Of a DNA stretch of 64,000 bases, positions 4,191 to 52,785 are shown piece by piece. Origin of the DNA: Brachyhypopomus gauderio (lineage: Eukaryota > Chordata > Actinopteri > Gymnotiformes > Hypopomidae); the NCBI RefSeq assembly GCF_052324685.1, contig NC_135222.1, positions 17,059,873 to 17,123,872 on the forward strand, given 5' to 3'. The stretch's first letter is position 1, and every line of letters starts with the position of its first letter. The notes below the pieces were generated by a model. The model saw only the letters and a list, made by a program, of their open reading frames with translations, made no database searches and had not been told where the DNA came from. The position numbers were made by a program, and so were the translations under genes.

Positions 4191-4537
4191 CCACCGCAGT
4201 TTTCCTGGTGTTTATTTTCCGGAGCCCTGTCAGAGAAGAGGAAAAGGAAGATGGTTTATTGTTTTGGGTACCTAGAAGATTTTGGCTAATCAAGGTTCTC
4301 CAATAAATTTTACAGTAAAAAATCTCTGATGCTTCCTTTGCCACACATGTGTACTGGAGAATTGAACAGAATGCTGGCTTAGTTAATGTTCCCTTGATGT
4401 TATGATGTTATCGTAATAAGTTAATCATAAACTTGCACTGTCCAATAACTCGGTGGCTCCAAGCTCAGATATCAATAGTAGACTGTTACTGAGTGTTCCC
4501 TTTAACACTGTGTAAATATCACAATGGCCAGGGTAAT

Positions 4538-4578
4538 TTACGAGGAAGTGTTGAGATCCTGCTGAGGTGTGAGCACAC

Positions 4579-4622
<44 letters not shown>

Positions 4623-7600
4623 AGTTCCTACCCCACAACAGCAGTCACCAAAGATGGTCCCAATCAGGCCGTTGATGACCTGGAAGCCACACAACACCAC
4701 CTGCAACAGGCCCATGATCAGGAGCGTGGAGAAGAGTCCGAGATGCCACGAGACGATGCCCTCTGGGGCCTCGCAGACCTCCCACATCGTCTGGTTAGAC
4801 AGGTAGTTGCTGACAACAGGAGAGGACGCAGGGACAGTCCAAGAGAGAGTAGTCAGTGGACATAACACAAACAACACCAGGTTTCATTGTCGTGTCCCTC
4901 AGGAAAGAGGCAGTCTATGTATGAGCTGTATGTGTGTGTAAGTCTTGTAGAATTTTCTAGACAGCAGAAGTCAACCTGATTTATAGTTAGGTTTGGGCAT
5001 TAGGGTTATGTGATAGGGTTGAGTTGGATTAGGTTAGGATTAAGGATTAGGGTTAGGGGTTAGGTTTGTGGTAGGTCATAAGGTTAGGGGTTAGCGTTAA
5101 GGAATCCTAACCCTTGTCTTCCTACAGGACCCTAATGCCTGAGTTACTACAGTAGCCCATCTGTGTTCTGTGTACATCTATGCATATGTTTGGAGGTGGT
5201 AATGTTTGGAGGTACCTACCCATCACTGAATGGGTAAGTAAATGTGCCATTGATCAGACATTTGGGTCCGTGATTGATGGCGACTGCGGACACGATGAAG
5301 GAGTAACCAGCTCCTATAAGCCCCACTCCAGCAAACATCACAGAAAAGAGCATCTGGGAGAAGACGACACGCATGAGACAAAATGAGTAACTGTAGTCAT
5401 TAGTGTACGTCCTGTCTTGGAGTTTGTGTATGTAATAGATGTTTGTGAAAGTTTGTGGCTTTTCTAAATCTTTGCAGTGCCAGAACTGATAAATAATATA
5501 AACTGGATAAAACCCTTTTTGAGGGTTTTTGAGGGAACACTAGTGTGTGGACACAATAGTGTCCGAATACTAGTGTGTGGACACAATAGTGTCCACACAC
5601 TAGTGTTCACTCAATAGTGTCCACACACTAAACACAGCAGTTTGACATCCGGCACACAGTTTTATTACCTTATTTTATAATAATCTGTTTGGAAAAAACA
5701 TATTTGCAAAATAATCACACACACACACACACGCGCACACACACACACACACATGCAAATATATACAGTTATACAGTGCTGCTTGAAAGGAAGGTTTGTG
5801 ATTCTCTTATTTTATCATCACCAGTGTTTGATTTACCTGTTTTGAAGGAACTGTGTGAGTTGCCAGCAGACTATATGACACATGGAACGGCAAAAAGTAA
5901 ATGAACCACTGGTAAAGTCCATTAGGTAAAAGGATAAAGGTGGTGAGAGCCCATCAGTCTGGACAAAGCTACAAGATTCCAGCTCCATCCATCCATTGTA
6001 AGACAAATAATTTACAAATGGAGGTCACTTAGCATCACCACAACTCTACCCAGAAATGGACGGTCATCAAAACTTGCACTAAGAAGCACCAGAAAAATAA
6101 TAATTCAGGTAAAGACCAACACACACATCACCACCGGAGAGTTGGAGACCTCTATGGCAGCATCTGGGATGAATTTACATGAGGCTAATATTAGTAGACA
6201 TAGATTACTAGACTAGATAGAGCACTTGGACAAACCAGAGGCTTTCTAGAAGTTGATTCTCTGGACACATGAGTCAGAAATTTAATTTTTTGGCCACAAT
6301 ATAATAGTGGCTCCAAGACTTTGGAATAATTTTCCAATATTTATAAAGGAATCAGCCACAGTAGATATTTTCATATCTAATTAAAAAGCCTACTTATTCT
6401 CACAGACCTTGAGTCTTGAACGGTTTTTATGCCGTTAGCTGTTTTGGCTGACCTTTGTCATCATGTTCTTTATCTCTGTGTTAAATACTGCCAATGTTTT
6501 TAGGGCTTTTTCAAAATTTCTTTTTATGCATAGTTTTATATTTTATATTTTTTGGTATTTTAGGTATCTGTTATTTTATCTAGTGTTCAGCACTTTGGTT
6601 GGCACTTGATGTATTTTAAATGTGCTATAGGAATAAAGATGACTTGACTTAACAATCACAGGCACCATGTTGGGAGAAGAGTCAACACTGCATATAAAGA
6701 GGAGAACCTACTACCAACAGTGAAACATGGTGGTGGAAATGTAATGGTCTGGGCCTGCTTTTCTGTTTCCGGACCTGGACGACTCCATATTATCCAGGGA
6801 AGTATCAATTCTCAGGCCTTCCTGAGAATCTTCCACAACCTACTAACTAAAAGTTTTCACATACTTTTGCAGTTGGCAGGGAAATTACTTTTGTTGAATA
6901 AGTTTTGTTTTCAGAGTGTCCTTCATTTGGAAGCTCTGCTTTACAAATCAAGATTTAGATGTTCATTTCATAAGATTATTTTCATTTTGTTTAGAAAACA
7001 ATGACCATGTTTGAGTGGATCACAAACTTTCAAGCAGCACTGTTTATATATAATATTTTTGTTCAAAACTGTTAAGGTTGGGGTTAGGGGTTAGGGATTA
7101 AGGTTTGGCTCCTCACCGCACATCTTCTTCCACAGCTTTCATTCCCACAGCATCCACAACAGTCATTGGTCTTCATACCAAGGAAGACCAGCGCGGGGAA
7201 AATCATCTTAACAAAACACACAGACATTCAGCCTTGGTCAGAGCAGGGCTCCTCCCCAGCACCACAAAGATAGTTTTTTATACTTCATGTTTATAGATGT
7301 TTTTACATTTTATGTACCATATTTACTATGTTTTTATTTGGTCAATTATCAATGCCTAAATTCATCATAAAAATAACAATTAATTAGATATACCACGCTC
7401 ATTATATGAACTTATATAAGTTATGTGTATAAAGTTATATGTATAAATCTTATTGAAAATATTTAAAACCACAGTAAAAGCACAATGTTGAAAATTATTT
7501 ATGCAGAAAACCATTCTCTTTCACTCTCAAACAAAATTTCTCAAATTGGTCAGGTCACGTCACTTACCAACACACCAGAGCCCAGGATCCCACCGAAATA

Positions 7601-15954: not shown

Positions 15955-16318
15955 GTTTGTGTGTGTGTGTGTGCATATCGGCCTGTGTGCACATTTGTTC
16001 ATGTATGTGTGTGTGTGCGCTAGCATGCATTGCATATCTGACTGTGTACACATTTGTTAATGTAGGCCTATGTGTGTGTGCATGCATGCATTGCATATCT
16101 GTGTGCACATTTGTTCGTGTGTGTGTGTGCGTGCATATCTGTTTGCGTGCATATCTGTTTGCGTGAACATTTATTTGTGTGTGTTGGTGTGTGTGTGTGT
16201 GTTGGTGTGTATGTGTGTGTCTGTGTGTGTGTGTTGGTGTGTGTTGGTGTGTATGTTGGTGTGTGTGTGTGTGTCTGTGTGTGTGTCTGTGTGTGTGTTG
16301 GTGTGTGTGTGTGTTGGT
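15955..16318. repeat. GT-rich imperfect repeat just upstream of tm4sf18
   Basis: Long GT-rich stretch including three copies of a gcatgcattgcatatctg-like unit and then gtgtgttggtgtgt repeats. It ends about 125 bp before the tm4sf18 start codon, so it lies in the proximal promoter or 5' UTR. Confidence 0.85.
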
Positions 16319-16444
16319 GGGGTCTTACAAATCTCGTGCTCCTCCTCCGCTTCCCTCCCTTTCCTTCCTGGAGCCCAGCTGGTGTGGTGTGTGTGGGGAG
16401 CGAGTGTCTATCTCTCTCCTCTTCTCTCCTCTCCTCCTGCGAAG

Positions 16445-18212
16445 ATGTGCTCCCTGCGTAGGGCCAGGTCTCTGGGCTTCGCACTGGTCCCACTGGCCAC
16501 CTGCTGCATAGTGGCCAACCTGCTCCTCTTCTTCCCCGACGGACGGGCCGATTTGGTGAAGACAAACAATCTGAGCAAGTATGTGTGGTTCTTCATGGGG
16601 ATAGGAGGCGGAGGGCTGGCCGTGAGTATGAGCTTTCATTTCTAAGCTCTGTTGCTTATGTTTGAAGCGATTGTGAAATTAAATAGTTTTCATGGTGGAT
16701 GAATCATGTAACGCAGTGTCTCTCTCTGAAATATCGCCATTTCTCATCAATTTAGGGGATTCGAAATGAGGAGATTTAAGTTTAAGTATGTCAAATACAT
16801 TTGAACTTTTACACTAAATAAATAAATAATAATCATGAGAGTAAGTGTGAGACGCTATTTCAAAAGAACATTTTTTTACCCAAAGCATATGTATAAAACA
16901 CCTTTGAGAAAACACTGTTTCAAATGCAGAGTAAACCGATTTGTGCAGAAAAAACTGATTTGTGTGGCAAAGCTAAAGATAATTATTTGACAGCAGAAGC
17001 ATTTCTTATTCCTCTAAGTATGTGTAGGGAAGCACTTGCCCTCTGAACTCAGGGTCAGGGGTGAGCAGTAGGAAACATTGTTGTGTTTAGAATATGACCA
17101 GATAAATGTTCTAGGGTGAGGCTTAGGGAATGAACTTCTCTAGGGTGAGGGCTAGGATCAGATACTTCTGAAGGGTGAGGCTTAGGGACTGAAACCTAGG
17201 GTGAGAGTTATGGTCAGATACTGCTCTAGGGTGAAGGTTAGGATCAGATATGTATCTAGGGTGAGGGTTAGGATCAGATACGTCTCTAGGGTGAGGCTTA
17301 GGGACTGAACTTCTCTAGGGTGAGAGTTATGGTCAGATACTGCTCTAGGGTGAAGGTTAGGATCAGATACATCTCTAGGGTGAGGCTTAGGGACTGAAAC
17401 CTCTCTAGGGTGAGAGTTATGGTCAGATACCGCTCTAGGGTGAAGGTTAGGATCAGATATGTATTTAAGGATAAAGTCTGATATCACTCTTTAATTTTAA
17501 CAATGTGGATGCATGTGTCTGTTATATTTGTGATCTTTTATTTATCAGCAATTGACTCTATGTTGGCAGATCCTGGTCACTGCTGTAAGCTTTCTGAGCC
17601 TGGAACAGTGTGCTAAGACCTGTGGAACAGACACCTGTGCTGTGAGTACAGCTGTCCATCTGCAGGAGTCTCACAGGAGTTTACACAGCACTTCCTGGTG
17701 TATCTTTAAGGATGTGATGTCTTTAAGAAGTTTATTTCTTGTTTTGTCTTTGGTTGTGTGATGATGATGATGATGGTGCAGATGTGTGGCTCCGTGCTAC
17801 CCGCTCTGCTGGGTGTGGCCGGATCTGTGTACTGTTTCATCATCTCTGGTTTGGCCTTGCTGGAGGGTCCGTACTGCTTCACCTCCTCCGGATGGAGGTC
17901 TCCGTTTGAGAACATTGGACCAAAGTAGGGAAGCATGAACGCTCCACCTCGCCCTCCAATTCATCGCGCGATTCACTGTGGCCGCTTAAAGCTCTCCTGC
18001 TTGTTATTCTCAGATACCTGTTTTCCTGGGACACCTGGTCCGAGTGCAGGCAGCCCGTTCACATCGTGGAGTGGAACGTGACGCTCCTGTGCATCCAGCT
18101 GGGTCTCAGCACGCTCGAGTTCCTCATCTGCACCGTCCAGCTCCTCAGCGGGCTGGTGCACGCCGTCTGCCGGCCGTGCTGCTACACGCAGGAATATCGA
18201 TTAAACGGCTGA
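16445..18212 (+). CDS. tm4sf18: Transmembrane 4 L6 family member 18/1-like (TM4SF18)
   Basis: Exons: 16445-16621, 17570-17641, 17782-17924, 18014-18212; phases agree and give 196 residues. Exon 1 (MCSLRRARSLG...) encodes helix 1, FFPDG and the VWFFMGIGGGG segment shared with TM4SF1. Exon 3 encodes helix 3 with LLEGPYC, and exon 4 gives WSECRQPVHIVEWNVTLL and helix 4. HIVEWNV and GPYC point to the TM4SF1/TM4SF18 branch. Position beside cp and opposite tm4sf4 supports tm4sf18. Exon 2 is short (24 codons) and has only CAKTCGTDTC, without the CCGCCG double-cysteine motif seen in tm4sf4 of this window and in human TM4SF1. Known role: L6-type membrane protein linked to endothelial and migratory behaviour. 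Confidence 0.87.
17107..17465. repeat. tm4sf18 intron 1 tandem repeat of ctctagggtgag-led units
   Basis: About a dozen units of roughly 28-30 bp, each beginning ctctagggtgag or ggtgaa and continuing as gcttagggactgaac or gttaggatcagatac. On the transcribed strand many contain AGGGTGAG, a donor-like sequence. Confidence 0.85.
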
Positions 18213-28205: not shown

Positions 28206-29970
28206 CTATTCACCCTCTAGCACTATGTGAGCGTACTGGCCGTGTGATTGGCTGTGTGATTGGCCTTGTGATTGGCCGTGTGATTGGCCGTGTGATTGGC
28301 CGTGTGATTGGCCGTGTCTCAGGCAGCACTCCAGAAGATGAGGCAGGAAGAACTGTGAACTTCCATCATCAGGCAGAAGTTCCAGGAACTCTAATGGGCT
28401 CAACTCCATGGCAACCACCTTCACAGTCTCTGTAGCAAAAAACAGTGGACAGAGTCATGTTACATGCCCTCAGGATGCTGTGAGGAGAGCACTGACCACT
28501 TGGTATTATTTCTGTCTAAAACAAGAAAGGAAATTCCCCTAGCGTGTCTCTACAGTAGCACAACCCCCTGTAAACACCACATAACTAACTGGAAGCAGGC
28601 AAAATGAATCACGGCTTATGACCTCAGCTCTGTTCTCTGGGGTACAGCTCATAAAACACACACACACAGAACAACAACAATTACAACAATAAACACGATC
28701 ACCCAGCTACCTTTGAGAGCAGCCAGTAGAACGCCATTCCCGGAGGAAACCCTTATCCTCTCACAGAGCTCCGGAAACAATTTCTGCCACCACAGAGCCT
28801 GCAGAGACAACAGGACAACCACGAAGGCTCCACCATGTATCTCACTACACCAACCTACACCTCTCTCCATCATAAACACTGGCCATATTTTTTAACGTGT
28901 GACACTATAGTTATTGTTTGTGGTTTCAGTTCCACGCTGCTCCCGCTGTGGTTTTCAGCTCTCTGTGGAGAAGTTGGAGTCAGGTGTGGGTTAGGTGGGG
29001 GATGTGTGTGGTGTGCGCGTGGCTCGGTACCAGTGTGTGGCCGTGCAGCTGGTGGTGTGCGTAGGGGATGACGGCCTCGGGACAGCGATCCAGCAGACGC
29101 TGCAGCGAGATGTCGAGCTGGCCCAGCCGGGTGGCACTCAACACGTGCACACTCACACCGCCACCGTCTGTGTCCGGCAGCTGCTTCAGCAGGGGCAGGA
29201 GGGGGGGCACATCCAGCGTGGGGCCACACAGGAGGGACTACAGCAGGGAGGACAGTACAAAGCGTGACCTGTGACCTATGACCTGCGTGGAAGTCTGTAG
29301 TGTTACAGAACTGTCAAATTATAGATCTGTGACCTGTGAGGGAGTCTGTAATGTTCAGACCTGTGAGGGAGTCTGTGGTGTTACAGACCTGTGACCTGTG
29401 AGGGAGTCTGTAGTTTTCAGACCTATGATGTTACAGCTCTGTGATTTTTGAGGGAGTCCTTACCATTCAGACCTGTGACCTGGGAGGGAGTCTGTAATGT
29501 TACAGACCTGTGACCTGGGAGGGAGTCTGTAATGTTACAGACCTGGAGCTTGCGCAGGTCTTCCTGGTGATCTTGGGTAGTGCTGGGGTGAGATGGGGTC
29601 AGGATGTTCACCCACGGGTACAGCTGCCCATAGTGAGAGCACGAGTTCATCTGGAAATGAAAGGGTTAGAGTTAGGGTTCGGTTTAGGTTTAGGGTTAGA
29701 GTTAGGTTTAGTGTTAGAGTTAGCAGCGTGTAGTTCATGTAGTGCCGTGTGTAGCGTGTAGCCCAGCCACTCTCACCAGGTCCTCAGCACTTCTGAGGGC
29801 CACAAGGCCAGCACGTTCTCCGCGTGTGACGCGGTCAATGTACACAGAGGTCAGGCGGGACAGGAGCTCCTGGATAATGGTTCCCTGAGACGAGGCCACC
29901 AGCAGCGCCTCCCAGAAGTCCACAAGCACTTGTAGACTCTGTCTGTCCATACTGTCCTTACCCAGTTCCT

Positions 29971-30056
<86 letters not shown>

Positions 30057-33000
30057 TGAGAATGGAAGAAACCAGAAAAACTATGGTCTGAGAAACGTGT
30101 TTCTCCATGAGACGCCCCCTGGTGGTACCTGGAAGAACAGGTCAGCCTCCTCCAGTTTAACTTTGCTGTTCTCGTGCAGCGCCACCACTGCGGCCACGAG
30201 CAGGCCGTCCTGTGTGTGATGCAGGTGCCGAGCGAACACGGTGGGCGTCACGGCAACACCTCTGCCCTGCAACAGCAGCCTGGGCTCCTCCACAAAGCCG
30301 AAGACCTGCAGCATCTGTCAAAGCAGCGAGTGAAGATGTTGTGACCTGCCTTCCCCGCTTCAACAAACCACACGGATGTTCTGACCCGCTCCAACAAACT
30401 ACTGAACACACAGGTGGACAAAGGGATGTCTGAAGACCCAGCAGACCCACGACTGGCTGCCGGCTGCCCGCTGCCCTCACCTCGGTGTGGCGGTCCATCT
30501 GCTGGTGGTACTGCTGCAGCTGTCCCAGACGCAGGGCCTGGGCAGCCTTGCAGAGTGTGAGGGTGACGGAGGACACCCCCGACACCTCCAGCCGCGACAG
30601 GTGCTCCAGCACGCACGTGGGGTCGGCCTTCGCCATGAACCGGCTGTTCACTACATGTGGGAGCTGCTCAGGCTCTGACTGACTGAAAATATCCAGCATC
30701 GTGTTAGCCGTCTCCTGCACGGGGGCACACACATCCAGCGCCGTGTTAACGTCACCCGCTAACACTGATTTTTAACATTTGTGATTTGATTTACCTCATC
30801 GGTCATTGTTACATATCATCCTGATTCATCTTAATTTATTGAAGAAAAAAAATTGTATTTTTGCACCCCTACGAATGAATGTTACCACTGGCCAAACTCA
30901 TGCTTGGATCTGTGCAAGCGTACGCGAGCCCTTCTGGGGGATTTTAGAGGATCTGGCGCTCACTTCACTCAGCTCTTCCATGGTTTCCTCATAGAGAGAG
31001 TGCTTGAGGAAGAACAGGAAGCCTTTCCCATAGTCGGCCACCTCTGCACTGCGGCCGGTGGGGGTCACGATCCTCTGGATGACCTCAGTCACAGACAGGC
31101 CAGACATCTTGTAGTAGGGCAGGGCCAGGTGACAATCCTGCCTGTCAACCCTAGGAAGAAAAGGCAGTGTTGCCCCCAGAATTAATGTCTTTTGTCAGCA
31201 AAACCTTACAAAATGTATTCAGAAAAAGGACCCTGACATAAATAAAACGTATCTATATGTCATGAACATGTAACGCTTTAATGTGATCATAAGGCTACAG
31301 AACACTTTCAAATGCCATTAACGACTGTTATAAGCCCTTTATAGCTGACACGAAATGTTAAAGCCACATTTTATCTGATATAAAGACGGCTTTAGTAAAT
31401 TTTCATGACAAATTTCATAACATTTTTCATAGGAATATGGTTATGTTATATGCTATTGCGACACCTTATTGCGAGACCAGCTTGGCCTATTAAATACATC
31501 TTAATATTAGCTCGGTCTACTATAACACCTATCTATTGTAATACTTATCTATTATAACTCCTATCTATTGTAACTCCTATCTATTGTAACACCTATCTTT
31601 TGTAACACTAATTAACTGTAAGACGTTAGCTCGGCTGTGGTGGGACGTGGACGTGCCTGCTGAAGCAGTCAGCCAGCTGAGCGCAGCTCTCTCTGAATGC
31701 CTGCTGGAGCAGGTCTCGGTCTGGGGCCTCACGCCCCGTTAGGCCCAGCAGGGCACTCCGTACCAGCAGGTGGGCCTCACTCAGCAGGTGCAGACAGTTC
31801 TGGGACAGCGGGCTGGTCTTCTCATACCGCCTACTGTACTCCACCTGCACAGACCACGGGGGGAAGGGGAAAGTGGAGCAGGTGGGGTTATGGGAGTTCA
31901 GACTAGTCGCTTGTAATGTGAGCTGGACGTTATACTGGCTGCAAAATGTTTAAGTCTAAATAATATTGACATTTGAGTATTGAGATAGATGTTACTGTAC
32001 CATCTCTCTGTAGAGCTGCAGTGTGGACACAGTGCTGATCACATACAGGTTCCATCCATGACCACTGTCACTGACACCCTTGGTCCTGGACATCTTCTTA
32101 GATCTTATTAAAAAAACAAAAGCAGAAGCTCCATAAGGAGTTATGCCTCTTTCCTTCAGCCGTAGGGGTGATTTCCTGGACCTCCAGCTTTGTGGGAAGA
32201 AGATTTGGCACCCTAGACATTCTTTGCTCTGCCAAACTCCCCTGGAGTTCCACTGGGATTTCACTGAGCCCAGTGACCCTCCAGGCTCTTGGTACTCATC
32301 ATGCCCACCAGTGTGAACTCTGGTTAGACACAGCAGTTGGGTCGAGGGGTAAGAACTGCCACATGGGCAAGTGTGAAACGATGACTCCTAGGAGATGTGG
32401 AAAGATTAGTGGATCACGAGGAGTCCAAGTCAGTGTACATCAGACTAGGAACCAGGAAGTTTGAACCTCCAGGACCCACCCCTGCTTCATCTCAGCCCTG
32501 CCAAGCGCACTTGGGTCTCATGGAGTTTGATACACTCCTTTTATGAAGTGCAATCTGCTTGCAAGGTGAAGAGGATTTACTCAAAGGAGCAAGACTCCTG
32601 AAATATGTGGGATCTTCAGTGGCTGCTAAATGACCAATAGGACCATCAAACTCTCCACGATGACCCACGAGAGCTTAATCAACTGCCCGGTTTGGGTCTG
32701 GGCAGCTGGATCTGTGGATCTATAAGCCATTTCCACAAACTGATTAGATTAGCCCAGTCCTGGTGCAGTTGTTGCAAGCACCTGACGGTCCTGGTGCAGT
32801 TGTTAGCTTCTGCACCCAAAACAAATTCACTGAATGAAAATACCATCCATTTACAGGTCGGCTGGATGTTAGATTGTGAGTCCACACACAAGCACGGGTA
32901 TGTTAGCAACATTTTAGAGGATGTTTATAGGACTGGACTCATGTTAGATGGTATACACACAGCCAACTTACAGGAAGGATCTGGATAGGAAGCTCTCCAG

Positions 33001-36000
33001 AGCAGGGTTGGATGATGAATCTACACCTACCGCTAGGAGAATCCCTGTGAGGGCAGAGGGCCCTTTTGAATCGCTACAATACAGAGCAATTGCTGAGGAT
33101 CAAAATACAAGCATAACACAATCATACATTCACGTTCACAGTCATAGACACAACACACTCAAATGAATTATGATCAGCAATAATAACACTAATTGTGAAG
33201 ATAATCTATGTTATGTTAGCAAACTAGCTATGTTGAGAACCTTATGAAGAAAAATTATAATCTACAAATTAACTACTCATATGCACTCATGGGGTTAATA
33301 CTGACAGCAATCTGACAGATTAGCAGTGCACCTGGCCCGACTGAACCACTATTTCAGATGCACCACTACTTTTAGAAATTAGTTTTCAGCTCGCACACTT
33401 GCCCTCATACTCTGCCTTCCCTGCATCTTCTGATGACCTGTTTGGACAATAATTACCAAAATATGGAGTCCATTTTAGACAGGAACGTCCGCAATGTCTG
33501 ATCCAACTGCTTACAAATCATTCATCATAATTGCATTCTGTTTGTGCAAAAATAAACCAAATAAACAAGAGTTGCAGCCTAACCCTGTAAAACCAGTTTA
33601 TGACACACGGTCGGCTAAACGTGGTGTGCTGTCGGTAAGGCCTGCTGCGAGTCAGCTCGTCTCAGGCGTTGTCCTGCTGTGAGTCAGCTCGTCTCAGGCG
33701 TTGTCCTGCTGGGACTTACGTCGTTCTCGCTGCTCCTTGCGTCTCCTCTCTGCCCTCCACGTCGGCGGCTGTGATCAACACGATGTACTTCCCGCTGTGA
33801 CACAGTGACTTCAGACCAATGAAGAGCTGAATACGCAGCGCACACACTTCCATGGTGACGGGGGGACACGCCTGAGGAACGGGGCAGACCGAGCGTCACA
33901 CGCAGCCCCGCCGAGGTGGCCCAGGCTAGGGTTAGGGTCACGCTACTCAACACACGCACAAAGGCTTAGGTGGTCTGCACAAAATGACGGGCAGGTGGTC
34001 TGTACTCTAACCCTTTACCTTCATGGTGGTGTCGATGTAGGGGTCCTCCGCCCGAGCTGCCACCGAACAGCAGCGCACAGAGAAGCACTGCAGAGCATTC
34101 CTGAGAGAAAACAGAGAGTTCAGACTCCCACAGCCTTCCTAACCAAACTACGGACTCGCAGACGGGAAACAAGAGGATTTAGGTACACAGTAAGCAGTAC
34201 AACGTACAACAAATCTGGTGCAAGTTCACAGCAAATCACCAACCACAACATAAAGTGACACTTTTGCTGTTCTGCTCACGTCCCGGAGAGCCGTCGTACC
34301 TGGTGATGACATACAAGAACTGATCGCACAGAGCAGCTTGATGGGCCTTCTCTGGGTACTGGTACGTGGAGATTAGCTCCACGGGGTTCTTCAGGCTGTA
34401 CAGGTAACCAGCACTGGGCATGGAGAAGAAGCAGAAGACACACAGAGGCTCTCTCACGCCTGGATCACTGTCTCCATAACAACCACCTGCGCAAAGGCAG
34501 AAAACAAGACAATGGTGAATGCAGAAGTGATGCTGGATGGGGGGTGGACGAGTGGGCGGAGCGTGGTGGGCGGAGCAATGTGGGCGAAGTATGGTGGGCG
34601 GAGCATGGTACTTGCCAGAAAATACAGGAAGGAGCTGCAACGAATGTAAGCATGTTTCCTCCACACTGCAGCCCTGGAAAAAGTCTGGAGCAAACCTCCT
34701 ACAGACAGGGCCAAAAAAATATTGGACATACTAAAAACACATATTGTTCTATATAAATACAGTACACTGATACAGTTCACATGGTGTGTAGTGTACCTGT
34801 ATAGTACAGTCTCAGTGCTGGGGTGTGTGGTGTACCTGTATAGTACAGTCTCAGTGCTGGGGTGTGTGGTGTACCTGTGTAGTACAGTGTAAGTGCTGGG
34901 GTGTGTAGTGTACCTGTATAGTACTGTCTCAGTGCTGAGGTGTGTACTGTACCTGTAAAGTACAGTCTCAGTGCTGGGGTGTGTAGTGTACCTGTATAGT
35001 ACAGTCTCAGTGCTGGGGTGTGTGGTGTACCTGTGTAGTACAGTCTCAGTGCTGGGGCGTGTAGTGTACCTGTATAGTACAGTCTCAGTGCTGGGGTGTG
35101 TGGTGTACCTGTATAGTACAGTCTCAGTGCTGGGGTGTGTAGTGTACCTGTATAGTACAGTCTCAGTTCTGGGGTGTGTGGTGTACCTGTATAGTACAGT
35201 CTCAGTGCTGGGGTGTGTGATGTACCTGTATAGTACAGTGTAAGTGCTGGGGTGTGTAGTGTACCTGTAAAGTACAGTCTCAGTGCTGGGGTGTGTAGTG
35301 TACCTGTATAGTACAGTCTCAGTGCTGGGGTGTGTGGTGTACCTGTATAGTACAGTGTAAGTGCTGGAGTGTGTAGTGTACCTGTATAGTACAGTCTCAG
35401 TGCTGGGGTGTGTAGTGTACCTGTATAGTACAGTCTCAGTGCTGGGGTGTGTGGTGTACCTGTATAGTACAGTCTCAGTGCTGGGGTGTGTAGTGTACCT
35501 GTATAGTACAGTCTCAGTTCTGGGGTGTGTGGTGTACCTGTATAGTACAGTCTCAGTGCTGGGGTGTGTAGTGTACCTGTATAGTACACTCTCAGTTCTG
35601 GGGTGTGTGGTGTACCTGTATAGTACAGTCTCAGTGCTGGGGTGTGTGATGTACCTGTATAGTACAGTGTAAGTGCTGGGGTGTGTAGTGTACCTGTAAA
35701 GTACAGTCTCAGTGCTGGGGTGTGTAGTGTACCTGTATAGTACAGTCTCAGTGCTGGGGTGTGTGGTGTACCTGTATAGTACAGTGTAAGTGCTGGAGTG
35801 TGTAGTGTACCTGTATAGTACAGTCTCAGTGCTGGGGTGTGTAGTGTACCTGTATAGTACAGTCTCAGTGCTGGGGTGTGTGGTGTACCTGTATAGTACA
35901 GTCTCAGTGCTGGGGTGTGTAGTGTACCTGTATAGTACAGTCTCAGTTCTGGGGTGTGTGGTGTACCTGTATAGTACAGTCTCAGTGCTGGGGTGTGTAG

Positions 36001-37702
36001 TGTACCTGTATAGTACAGTCTCAGTTCTGGGGTGTGTGGTGTACCTGTATAGTACAGTCTCAGTGCTGGGGTGTGTAGTGTACCTGTATAGTACAGTCTC
36101 AGTTCTGGGGTGTGTGATGTACCTGTATAGGACAGTGTAAGTGCTGGGGTGTGTAGTGTACCTGTATAGTACAGTCTCAGTGCTGAGGTGTGTACTGTAC
36201 CTGTAAAGTACAGTCTCAGTGCTGGGGTGTGTAGTGTACCTGTATAGTACAGTCTCAGTGCTGGGATGTGTAGTGTACCTGTATAGTACAGTCTCAGTGC
36301 TGGGATGTGTAGTGTACCTGTATAGTACAGTCTCGGTGCTGGGATGTGTAGTGTACCTGTATAGTACAGTCTCGGTGCTGGGATGTGTAGTGTACCTGTA
36401 TAGTACAGTCTCAGTGCTGGGATGTGTAGTGTACCTGTATAGTACAGTCTCAGTGCTGGGGTGTGTAGTGTACCTGTATAGTACAGTCTCGGTGCTGGGA
36501 TGTGTACTGTACCTGTAAAGTACATAAGTAAGTGTCATGCCTCTGCCTGCCTCTGACTCCACCCACTCTAAAGACACAGAGATGCCACAGTCTTTTGCAT
36601 CATCTCCCAGTAGCTCCAGATGCTTTGGGAACACAAAGAAGTCTTCGGCCTCTTGAGGATTTTCAAGCTCTTTTTTCACATCTGGAAAACATAGTGACAC
36701 AGATACAAGGACATGTAATCATCAAGCATTAATTTCCACACTAATCTACACTAACATCATCGTTGTGGTTGCACAAAGACCAGCATACTTGTATCCTACC
36801 AGCATCAGTGAGGCCAGCTCGGGCTGCTCCAGGGCTGCTGGGTATCTGTGTTTGATCTTCTGGAGATGGACACGTCTTCTCCATGTGCTCCAGCTTCACC
36901 ACCACCACCTCCAGCTCTGTCTGCAAGGCCACGTATCCGGCACAGAAGGCCACGTGTGACACGTTCCAGCTGGGAACGTGGAGGATGACGAGCATTTCGA
37001 AGTCCAGCACAGCCAGCCGCGTGCTCAGCTCCTGCCTCTTCAGGCTGAACACCGCCGAGCTCCTGGAGCAGCCGACCAGCAGGTCTCCCGTCAGGGCGCA
37101 GCACGCCATGCACTGAGGGGGCTCGGACAGTGGCATCTCGATGATCTCCATCTGCTCCTTTGGAGCTCCACGCAGCGACGAGCCGCGCAGGAAGTGTCCG
37201 AGGAGACGCACGCCGATGCGGGTCTTCTCAGAAGCCTGATAGCGCCAGTTGGTGTAGGCCCGGAGGTAGGTGGCGCTGTTTCTCTCCTCAATAGTAACTA
37301 GATAGTCCCCTGGCAGGAGAAAAAAAAAACACATCACAGCTAGTCATAACAAATGAAAGGTGTAGCAAGACTGTTTGAACTGGCTGAATGTATGAGGGGC
37401 AGGACCTCTGTTTGGGCAACAGTTGTGGCACAAAAAAATATTTTTTTTGTAAATACTATTTTTAAAAACAAAAGTTAGTTCTCACCTATTTGACTGTACA
37501 GAATACTACGGACTGCACCCATAGTAGAAAAACGACAGATGAGAGGGCAGCCATCGTCCTGCATCTGGTACGCCTCGATCTTGCATCCTCCGCCCGACAC
37601 CACGAACACGGCACCTCCTCCACAACACACCACACCGGGCTCTTGGGCCGTGGGCACTATGTTCTGGGAAGCGAAGGGGTGGCAGTTGTACACATGAACC
37701 AT
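28206..37702 (-). CDS. hps3: HPS3, BLOC-2 complex subunit
   Basis: Seventeen exons, as in human (minus strand, 5' to 3'): 37486-37702, 36800-37309, 36513-36681, 34616-34698, 34300-34486, 34019-34100, 33720-33871, 32001-32103, 31657-31844, 30964-31150, 30481-30714, 30129-30314, 29777-29968, 29543-29650, 29031-29237, 28711-28798, 28206-28429. Phases close to 1038 residues (human 1004). Matches to human HPS3 include the MV-YN-HPF start, [52 protein letters not shown] and PELC-RI. The human clathrin-box region LLDFE reads VLDFE (residues 173-177). HPS3 with HPS5 and HPS6 forms BLOC-2, which directs cargo to melanosomes and other lysosome-related organelles. Introns 4 and 9 appear to be GC-AG. Exon 3 ends in a large donor-carrying array, and the C-terminus carries a new repeat tail. 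Confidence 0.95.
28232..28325 (-). repeat. Coding 12-bp repeat encoding HGQS at the HPS3 C-terminus
   Basis: Seven copies of a 12-bp unit (cacggccaatca on the coding strand) give [12 protein letters not shown] and variants after the conserved ECCLR, followed by YAHIVLEGE and the stop. Human HPS3 ends shortly after the equivalent of ECC. The unit also carries CCAAT on the coding strand. Confidence 0.88.
29290..29542 (-). repeat. 35-bp repeat starting at the hps3 exon 14 donor
   Basis: On the transcribed strand exon 14 ends CTCCAG, and the intron opens directly into two exact 35-bp copies beginning GTCTGTAACATTACAG and ending GGTCACAG. About five more diverged copies follow. Every junction recreates CACAG|GTCTG, similar to the native donor. 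Confidence 0.85.
29971..30054. repeat. (CA)n microsatellite at the hps3 exon 13 acceptor
   Basis: On the transcribed strand this is (GT)n ending immediately at TGTGTCAG, the exon 13 acceptor (29968 is the first exon base). It therefore replaces the usual polypyrimidine tract by alternating GT. Confidence 0.9.
32104..33719. other. hps3 intron 7 with an unclassified stretch
   Basis: The part from about 32150 to 33070 has balanced base composition and scattered short open frames on both strands, unlike neighbouring AT-rich introns. This may be a decayed element, but I see no ends, motif or family. Confidence 0.3.
33642..33712. repeat. 32-bp duplication next to the hps3 exon 7 donor
   Basis: Two and a bit copies of a unit containing gtcagctcgtctcaggcgtt, ending 7 bp from the exon 7 donor (exon edge 33720). 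Confidence 0.85.
34780..36520 (-). repeat. 39-bp minisatellite amplifying the hps3 exon 3 donor
   Basis: About 44 units of 39 bp. On the transcribed strand each contains CTGTACTATACAG|GTACAC, a copy of the exon 3 boundary CTTTACAG|GTACAG at 36513/36512. The unit equals 13 codons and stays open in the exon 3 frame (repeat peptide [13 protein letters not shown]). Larger periods of 390-429 bp (10-11 units) show block duplication. The array occupies nearly the whole of intron 3, and exon 4 starts at 34698. Confidence 0.95.
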
Positions 37703-48140: not shown

Positions 48141-50543
48141 TCACGCAACAGCAGTTTTAAAGACTGGATCCTCAGCAAAGCCGGTGGACTCTGCCGGGCA
48201 CTGGTCTGACTGGGCCGTCGGGAACGGCACAAGGGTGGGCTCCTTTTCCTGGGTGGTCTGTGGGTTGGGGCGGAGTTGTCCAAGGGAAGCGTGTCCTGGA
48301 TCTTGTGCAGGGAGAGCTGGGAGGGTGGCGGCCTGGTCCAGGGCGGGCAGGACGTGGACGCTCCCCTCAGGCCGCTCTGGGTGGCTCTCATGCTGGTGGT
48401 GATGGTGGTGGTGGTGGTGTTCATGCACATGGAGGTGCACGTGCTGGTGCAGGTGGTCCAGGGCTAGCTCGTGGTCGTGTGCGTGAGTCTCACCCTCCCC
48501 ATGACCGTAATTGTGGTGGGAGTGTGTGCCCTTGTCCTGGGTGTGATTGTGGGCTGCTGAGTGGTGTGCATGAACGTGGTCATGTTCCCTGTGTTCATGC
48601 GTGTGATGGGGGCTGGAATTCTCAGAGTGATCGTGCGTGTGTTCCCCCTTGTGGTCATGATCATGCGTGCGGTCATGGGGATGACTTTGGCTGTGTGGGT
48701 GGTCATGTCCTAAAGACATATCACTGACATTAGCATGGCTGTGGTCTCCTCCATGAAAATGCCTCTTCTTTTCCTCCTCTGCAGCCTGAAAGACACGATT
48801 GTTGTAACACTTGTAGTATACACTTGTAGTATACACTTGTAGTATACACTTAAGTATACACTCTGATTTCTTAAATGATTTTCTGTATACCTCAGGTTCA
48901 AAGATTTCACATTCAGCGTTTAGGTGTTCGTTGCCGTTGGCGTAAGAGAGTGAGGATCTGCAGAGGCCTTTGTGCTGAAGAGGAAGCACAGACTCACTGT
49001 CACGTTGCCCTGACGGCTCAACAACTTATAGTCAAATATACACATAACAAACTTCATAAGAACATATACACTACAGAAAAAACTAACAGTCAGTGTTTGA
49101 CTACAGCAGTTATTGCAGCAGTTGACCAAATACATGTCTTAGGGAATCTTATTTCACTTACCGCAAATTCACAGGTCATGATTTTGCACTGTGAAATCTC
49201 TGCTATATCAGTCTTGTTGGAGCACTCTGTCTCCTGGATGGTGAACTCCACATTGTAAAAAGTGACAAACCCCCCCTAGAAGAGAAAGAAAGAAAAAAAC
49301 AAAAGTGTAAGAAAAAGAGAGAGAGACATACAGTGAGAGAGAGAGAGAGGAGTTCAGTTGGAATGCAGTGTCTTTCTTTTTCTTTCGTTCCTCCATCCTT
49401 TATTTCTCGCTCTAACCTGGGACGTAGCTCTTGTGATGTTTAGAGGGATGAAGTAGTTTGCAAACATGCTGTTCTTGTTGAACTTCTCAGTGCCCATCCT
49501 CACAGCCTTGGCCACGTTGGCATTATCCACTGGGATCAGAACGGGGCAGTCAGGGCACACCTGAACGATTTTGGAGGCAGGAACTTCAACAGAAAGCAGA
49601 TATTCAGTTACGGTCTTTCCTTTAATGTGCTTAACACTGAAGGTATCGAAGTTTCCTGTGGTGAATCAGTGTTTTTTTTACCAGGCTTGATTGAACAGCT
49701 GTATCTGTAGAGACGAGAGACTCTGTGAACTTTGTTTATGTAGATCACTCCCCTGCACTGACCGTACACCTGCATTTCACAAGATGCACAGGGAGAAACA
49801 CGGGTTAACAACACTGAAAAAAATAAAGCATTGGCTCAATGTAATAAAATTGAATTAATCAATCACACAAATTTTTTATCATTGAATCAATCCAAAAAAC
49901 TAAATTCATGACTAAATGAATTTAGTTTTTTGGATTGATTCAATGAAAAAAAATTTGTGTGATTGATTAATTCAATTTTATTACATTGAGCCAATGCTTT
50001 ATTTTTTTCAGTGAAGGCACACCGTGCACTGTTAAACTCCTTTATCAAATTTAAATGGACACATTGTAAATTTGACATTGTAAATGGACATTGTAATGGG
50101 TGCATCACCGGGTTTCCGCCAATATCTCTGACTTCACAGTTCCTCCAGTTTTTCTTACTGAGGACATGGCACTTTGTTTCACGAACGTCGATTGTCAGAT
50201 AATACACCACTCCCGTTTCTCCCTAACGATGAAAAAAACAACAAATCAGAAAACAACAAATCAGAACAAATCTGATGATCCGTGATAATTCAGATGTGAG
50301 CTCAAATAAGGAGCGGCGCTCACTCACGTGGCGTGTGTAGTGGACGTTGCTGAGGCGCTCCAGTGCCAGGACGTAGCCGTCCGTGCGGTCCAGGTTGATG
50401 GTATCTACGGCCTGTGCAGCTGCCCCATTTGCTGAAGCATCATGGCAGGAGCCTGCCGTGAGGGCGGGACCCACAGGGTCCACAGGGTCCACAGGGGCCG
50501 CACGCACACTCACCAGCACCAGCGACACCAGCAGCAACAACAT
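48141..50543 (-). CDS. Histidine-rich fetuin-family protein (HRG-like), copy 3
   Basis: Seven exons: 50328-50543, 50109-50222, 49682-49769, 49417-49583, 49162-49275, 48891-48974, 48141-48785; 475 residues. Signal peptide from MLLLLVSLVLVSV, two cystatin-like domains (to about residue 261; CPDCP at Cys149) and a 214-residue last exon. That exon holds about 50 histidines in HxH/HDH patterns and a run of eight His, then a proline/glutamine-rich end. Architecture equals mammalian histidine-rich glycoprotein: two cystatin domains plus a His-rich region that binds Zn, heme and heparin. The repeat is not GHHPH, so orthology to HRG is inferred, not shown. A palindromic MITE lies in intron 2. Confidence 0.88.
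48820..48862. repeat. 15-bp repeat acttgtagtatacac
   Basis: Three to four copies in intron 6 of the copy 3 gene. Confidence 0.8.
49812..50013. mobile_element. Palindromic fold-back MITE, 202 bp
   Basis: A nearly perfect inverted repeat from cactgaaaaaaataaagc to its complement, with arms of about 97 bp around a centre near 49912. It has no coding capacity. This fits a young non-autonomous DNA element of the fish fold-back type. It lies in intron 2 of the copy 3 fetuin gene. Confidence 0.85.
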
Positions 50544-51529: not shown

Positions 51530-52785
51530 TCAACTTTTTTGGCCTCTTCTCATGAAAGCATGTGGGAATGGACATATGGGGTGAATAGAAGGAGGTATTT
51601 TCACAACCCCATGACATTGTGGGAAGGGGAACTCTATTTGTTCACTAGATCCTGGAAGCTCTGGTGTGGGTTCACTGTGTGGTAGATGCTGTTGGGGTGG
51701 GCGGGTGGGTTTTGTGGGATCTTTCTTGTGCTCGTGGTGGTCTCCATGGTGTTTTGGACCTCTGTGGTGTGGATGGTCTGAACGAACAAAACAATGTGAA
51801 TGACCCTCTTCGTGATGATGCTTGTCATGGCCAGAGCCAGCATGGCCTGGACGCTTGTCATGGCCAGAACCAGCATGGTCTGGACGCTTGTCATGGCCAG
51901 AACCAGCATGGTCTGGACGCTTGTCATGGCCAGAACCAGCATGGCCTGGACGCTTGTCATGGCCAGAACCAGCATGGTCTGGACGCTTGTCATGGCCTGG
52001 ATGCTTGTCATGGCCTGGACGCTTGTCATGGCCTGGATGCTTGTCATGGCCAGAACCAGCATGGTCTGGACGCTTGCCATGACCAGAACCAGCATGGTCT
52101 GGATGGTGGTGCCTTGAGTGGTACCAGTGGCCTTTTCGATGTCCACAGTGTCTCCTGAGAAATGGAGCATGGTGATGATGTGTTGTGTTCTGTAAGGAAG
52201 CAGAATAAAGTCACAACACAGCAACAGACCTTATCATGTGTTTAAAAGACGATGCTGCCTACCTGAGCCTCATAAACCTCACAGTCTACAGTCAGATCAT
52301 CATTTCCAAGCCGGGAAGATATGCAGAAGCCATGATGCTGATGTTGGGAGACCAATAAAACTGCATTCACTCATTCACATTAACAAATGTGAATATTGTC
52401 ATATTGTAATGTAGGGTTAGGGTTATAGGTCATATTTGTAATGTAGGGTTAAGATTAGGGGTATAACTCATATTGTAATGTAGGGTTAAGGTAGGGGTAT
52501 AGGTCATATTGTAATGTAGGGATATGTATGGGGAAAATGTAGAGGGCTGGATCTATAAATTCATTACTAATGCAGTGAGCAAACGTGTTTGATATGACAA
52601 GTGTTCTTACAGCTTCTTGGTCACAGAGTGGCTGGCATGCGGTTTTGTCCTCTGTTTTATTTTTGTCTGAACACTCAGTCTCCACTATGGCAAACTCAGC
52701 AAAATAGCTCTGTCCAAACATCATATTGAACTGAAAAGACAATAGAAAACAGTGAATATAAAAATGTCAAACATGGATGAACCTT

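Follow-up and report, generated by a model that had tools for sequence, protein, structure and literature searches.

The splice donor of exon 3 of hps3 is repeated 45 times in the fish Brachyhypopomus gauderio, in a 39-bp tandem array that starts at the end of the exon and runs through intron 3. The DNA analysed here, hereafter the window, comprises 64,000 nucleotides (nt) of contig NC_135222.1 (positions 17,059,873 to 17,123,872), and hps3 lies on its minus strand. Judged from the DNA, the array is probably a neutral junction minisatellite, in which the first donor would be mostly used and minor isoforms, longer by 13 residues for each copy, may occur at low levels. The features of this region, in window coordinates, are:

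36513..36681, minus strand: third coding exon of hps3, 169 nt, placed by its Pfam HPS3_N match (240-290, to the last whole codon), its frame and its splice sites, and ending in phase 2 at VLYR
36513..36524, minus strand: final 12 nt of exon 3, TGTACTTTACAG, with homology to the unit end (11/12 consensus match; boundary of the Tandem Repeats Finder (TRF) array at 36524)
36507..36515, minus strand: first donor, CAG|GTACAG, probably ancestral, with predicted U1 pairing via TA at +7/+8 (duplexfold, -9.4 kcal/mol)
34783..36512, minus strand: 39-bp array in intron 3, 44 full units and a stub, with a 13-codon consensus unit in the exon 3 frame and a donor copy per unit
36193..36203, minus strand: donor copy 9, with the bulge-register sequence GTACAGTA kept
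34945..34955, minus strand: donor copy 41, with GTACAGTA likewise kept
34791..34799, minus strand: 45th and final donor copy, with 98 nt between it and the exon 4 acceptor
34616..34698, minus strand: fourth coding exon of hps3, starting G AGG TTT (RFAPD), placed by profile match and frame

Exon 3 ends CTTTACAG|GTACAG at the junction 36513|36512, and 44 full units follow, with a truncated 45th unit that retains the junction. Between 36513 and 34797 there are 45 AG|GTA motifs; the 44 intervals separating them all measure exactly 39 nt and keep one phase, and TRF reports 44.7 copies with 93% matches and 0% indels (34783-36524). A first-pass annotation of the sequence had placed the exon end and the array in this way and had described a 13-codon unit, open in the exon 3 frame, with all junctions at one phase, which agrees with the exact spacing and the lack of stops across the whole array. 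One correction concerns the extent of the array, which also includes the 12 nt at the end of exon 3 (36513-36524). The annotation further held that every unit recreates TATACAG|GTACAC. The core CAG|GTACA is indeed present at 45 of 45 junctions, but the longer motif varies: GTACAC is found at 39 of them, GTACAG at three and GTACAT at three, and the 44 unit ends read TATACAG (38), TTTACAG (4) or TACACAG (2). The nine-base donor site is accordingly CAGGTACAC in 39 copies, CAGGTACAG in three and CAGGTACAT in three. When each of the 45 donors is joined to exon 4 in a simulated splice, all products are open and continue in frame into RRFAPD, with inserts of 0 to 572 residues at 13 per copy. The sequence LYRRFAPD, expected earlier from any copy, is restored in 43 products (VLYRRFAPD), and the other two read VLHRRFAPD.

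The hps3 gene model and the family profile

The gene is hps3, encoding the BLOC-2 subunit HPS3, as had been proposed: a Pfam scan of 10 window pieces found HPS3_N (PF14761) in three and HPS3_C (PF14763) in two, so both domains are present. Our model has 16 exons placed by eye, and the conceptual exons are stop-free in two blocks (466 and 495 residues). It has a gap between exon 7 (end 33720) and the next modelled exon (start 32096), whose acceptor is uncertain. Among solved structures, no chain matched the hps3 exon 2 piece.

When exons 3 to 6 are joined without an insert, they match HPS3_N in a single stretch (profile positions 240-411, 239.2 bits). Adding three array units splits the match in two and lowers it to 229.5 bits, a loss of 9.7 bits. 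The HPS3_N family profile therefore has no insert at the exon 3-4 junction, in line with the earlier statement that mammalian HPS3 lacks one there. In the three-unit construct, the better stretch starts at profile position 285, within the final unit, and takes up the VLYR of that unit, which indicates that the coding end of a unit can replace the end of exon 3.

Several details of the model are recorded here as side observations. Two modelled introns need GC donors to hold the frame (34614-34615 and 31655-31656, minus strand; CTG|GCAAGT and CAG|GCACGT). A 32-bp repeat of 2.2 copies (33641-33711, minus strand) starts about 8 nt into the intron after exon 7. An AC/GT tract of 41.5 copies (29972-30054) lies 3 nt upstream, on the minus strand, of the hps3 exon at 29968.

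Origin and growth of the array

The unit end agrees at 11 of 12 positions with TGTACTTTACAG, the stretch that closes exon 3, and the runner-up among the 2710 12-mers of the 16 modelled exons reaches 9 of 12. On neither strand does the window contain an 11/12 match beyond 34783-36524, and chance is an unlikely source of this homology. Because the unit end shares the sequence of the exon 3 end, its most likely origin is a tandem duplication that crossed the boundary between exon 3 and intron 3. The shared sequence suggests that the duplicated 39-bp segment comprised 12 nt of exon and 27 nt of intron. To look for a dispersed satellite inserted into the intron, a 6-base-seeded search was run over the window, and it found no other copies of the unit there (best match 24/39).

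The units of the array fall into 17 distinct types, and their variants are interleaved. Comparing units 11 apart gives 12 identical pairs out of 33 and a mean difference of 1.64, the lowest among lags 1-24 (others 2.11-2.74), which points to duplication of blocks of about 11 units, a higher-order repeat. Later growth would thus have included multi-unit duplications, of which the 11-unit repeat is the visible example.

Duplications across the donor would have been tolerated because the upstream-most copy still yields a normal mRNA; for the same reason the first donor is most likely the dominant one. The donor at 36513|36512 would then serve the large majority of transcripts, with the array removed as part of a 1.8-kb intron. 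The next few copies may occasionally be used, inserting the 13 residues once or a few times, which could be tolerated since the unit is 13 codons long and stop-free. This is close to an option raised in the first-pass annotation, exclusive use of the first copy in the donor array, except that we keep low-level use of further copies as a possibility.

A second donor-anchored repeat intron in hps3

A second intron of hps3 also carries repeats that start at its donor:

29543..29650, minus strand: hps3 exon before the second repeat intron, ending LRKLQ (gene model)
29238..29542, minus strand: second donor-anchored repeat intron, 305 nt, with repeats of about 35, 27 and 50 nt (TRF)

This intron starts at the donor CAG|GTCTG, and the 18 nt CAG|GTCTGTAACATTACA recur 35 nt on with zero mismatches. 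Counting the exon's own, AG|GT occurs 13 times, six of them as AG|GTCTG. Eight of the 12 downstream copies shift the frame; of the other four, three reach a stop and one is stop-free, with a 63-nt insert. Since most downstream copies break the frame, donor-anchored repeats evidently arise in hps3 without a coding role, and the second repeat intron is a natural control for the 39-bp array.

Across the gene model, two of the 16 donors have a junction-spanning tandem copy (at least 85% identity) and none of the 14 acceptors does (Fisher P 0.28). The background of tandem-copy positions is 21% when both arrays are counted; dropping the first array brings it to 3.6% and dropping the second as well to 2.2%, and excluding arrays from it favours our own reading. 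At backgrounds of 2-4.7%, the binomial P for 2 of 16 donors is 0.04-0.17. The donor excess of junction-spanning repeats is a hint, not a result.

Predicted strength and position of the donors

In duplex predictions against the 5' end of U1, the first donor, CAG|GUACAGUA, pairs over 10 bp with the C at +4 bulged (-9.4 kcal/mol). Copies 9 and 41 retain this bulged 10-bp register, and the other 42 of 45 pair over 6 bp (-7.1), a difference that speaks for the first donor; all copies lie between -7.1 and -9.4. The 16 modelled hps3 donors range from -4.1 to -10.2, and 8 of them are weaker than -7.1, which makes each array copy a credible donor. A GTAC start is also found in 4 of the 15 other modelled donors. 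Another modelled donor, ATG|GTACAGTA at 32001|32000 (minus strand), shares its bulge-register intron start with the donor of exon 3 and is weaker (-6.4). Passages of PMC9311317, citing Roca 2012, describe bulge registers as a mode of U1 pairing associated with more alternative 5' splice-site selection.

Several results weigh against predominant use of the first donor and a neutral array. Opening of local structure is predicted to cost 7.06 kcal/mol at the first donor, 9.54 at copies 9 and 41, and about 3.4-5 at most others. Owing to this higher cost, the sum of duplex and opening energies gives the first donor no advantage (about -2.3, compared with +0.1 at copies 9 and 41 and a range from -3.7 to -1.1 for the other 42). 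A weight matrix scores the copies about equal (0.2-1.5, versus 0.28 at the first donor). The enrichment of junction-spanning repeats at donors is weak, with no excess over the 21% background that includes both arrays. As for position, the first donor gives a 169-nt exon and the last a 98-nt intron; exon definition would favour the first donor, intron definition the last. With the 13 other modelled introns at 118-506 nt, intron definition could choose the last copy.

Two further candidates were rejected. Splicing at the AGs of the units within the array is unlikely, as the pyrimidine fraction there is 0.47-0.65, compared with 0.71-0.76 for the acceptors of exons 3 and 4. The exon end with five units shows no special RNA structure (z +1.1; 180 of 200 shuffles fold equally well or better).

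Alternative uses of the array

The alternative that survives best, although we think it rather unlikely, is a multi-donor switch like that of human IFI6 (discussed below). Several copies would be used appreciably, perhaps in a tissue-dependent manner, HPS3 would carry 0 to n 13-residue inserts between VLYR and RFAPD, and array-length alleles would shift the mix. It is favoured by the 45 of 45 copies that keep frame and phase, by their predicted U1 pairing of -7.1 or better where half of the modelled donors are weaker, by the normality of GTAC donors in hps3, and by donor columns -4..+5, which are invariant in the 44 units and form the longest such run (9).

The tests of selection do not bear this out. 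The invariant run of 9 is not significant (P 0.12), nor is the presence of a single variable site in -3..+6 (P 0.058). Synonymous variants in the exon frame make up 6 of 16 distinct ones versus 4.4 expected (P 0.26, not significant). The lone 'stop' variant, G23T, is always paired with G25C in the unit types, so that no TAG arises. That the array is in frame is itself weak evidence: two of its three forward frames are open, and among the 16 long arrays of the window (period of at least 9, at least 10 copies, with TRF rows merged where they overlap), the period is a multiple of 3 in 8 and indels are absent from 9, the hps3 array included in both counts. Indel-free arrays are thus ordinary here. 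Frame preservation was rejected as evidence of coding, as 8 of the 15 other long arrays are indel-free and 5 of those have a period not divisible by 3. A multi-donor switch would also place its insert within the conserved HPS3_N profile, and it is impossible for 11 of the 12 downstream copies of the second repeat intron. The splice-selectable insert suggested in the first-pass annotation is neither excluded nor supported by these non-significant tests of coding and donor selection.

A broader version of this idea appears improbable to us. Array length and the balance of splicing factors would together set a graded series of HPS3 products that carry, at VLYR|RFAPD, a Thr-rich insert of n x 13 residues and differ from one individual to another; first donors would be chosen via exon definition and last donors via intron definition. 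More generally, donors, not acceptors, would nucleate minisatellites in repeat-rich fish genomes, because the first copy stays in use after a duplication across the donor.

It is very unlikely that intron definition picks the donor at 34797|34796, the last copy, which would leave a 98-nt intron, turn the array into exon and give HPS3 about 572 more residues. The residual intron would be near the size of the gene's small introns and the 44 units are stop-free, but the 572 residues would fall inside a conserved domain, the implied exon of about 1.9 kb contrasts with 82-510 nt for the other modelled exons, and the synonymous excess is not significant. An assembly artefact, with the array collapsed, inflated or misplaced, is the least likely of all: long near-identical arrays are commonly misassembled, but this one has 17 unit types, interleaved variants and an exact period, its homology ties it to the exon, and copy number rather than the presence of the array is the uncertain part.

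We therefore return to the neutral junction minisatellite with a mostly used first donor. With 45 near-equal donors in one frame, ranging from one at the exon itself to one only 98 nt short of the acceptor, the hps3 array is a natural test of tandem 5' splice-site choice, and also of exon versus intron definition. The presence in a single gene of two introns with donor-anchored repeats suggests a cheap route of intron growth.

Other features of the window

TRF masks 18% of the window as tandem repeats, and 437 masked open reading frames lie outside hps3. Pieces of L6_membrane (TM4SF) genes are found by Pfam at 4425-4883 (minus strand) and 16061-16645 (plus strand). Histidine-rich open frames lie at 48141-49025 and 51530-52210 (minus strand), and the latter contains repeats with a period of about 33 bp; neither has a Pfam hit, and by eye we take them to resemble histidine-rich glycoprotein or kininogen tails.

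Comparison with known systems

The minisatellite of human IFI6 (also named G1P3 or 6-16) has a 12-bp unit in 26 copies and starts near the end of exon 2. Its original report as a splice-donor minisatellite is that of Turri, Cuin and Porter (1995, NAR 23:1854). The hps3 array shares several sequence features of this type: it starts at an exon end and enters the intron, each unit has a donor-like site, and the unit is a multiple of three and stop-free. An excerpt of PMC4526556 describes the IFI6 minisatellite as providing multiple splice donor sites. IFI6 is thus a direct precedent for the hps3 array and the concept is not new, contrary to the novelty first assumed for it. In their excerpts, PMC2915984 and PMC2572611 only cite Turri, and those of PMC3045353, PMC1971062, PMC12771815, PMC4329672 and PMC2688266 describe no splice-donor arrays. 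A limited literature search listed no title on an hps3 donor array among its matches, from which we claim no absence from print.

Other systems share parts of this arrangement, as far as the passages cited describe them. In human segmental-duplication genes, minisatellites averaging 30-bp units, some at exon-intron boundaries, alter splicing (PMC2812944); these boundary repeats form novel introns, whereas in hps3 the junction of an existing intron is repeated. Intron gain via tandem duplication of AG/GY proto-splice sites in Drosophila (PMC2891723), and by AG/GY tandem duplication in potato (PMC4974935), likewise involves a tandem duplication carrying AG|GT; hps3 differs in that an existing intron grew and no new position was created. 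The rainbow trout irak3 gene is also a teleost gene with an exon end repeated in the intron, 15-17 nt of the exon 5 end being repeated four times in the adjacent intron (PMC6763605), but there the repeats are on the acceptor side and number only four.

The closest likeness remains that to IFI6, where the repeats serve as additional donor sites and yield isoforms, as a donor-like site in every hps3 unit might. The two differ in scale, with 12 bp x 26 copies in IFI6 compared with 39 bp and 45 donors in hps3, and in kind of evidence, three mRNA species having been reported for IFI6 and the hps3 array being known here from its DNA.

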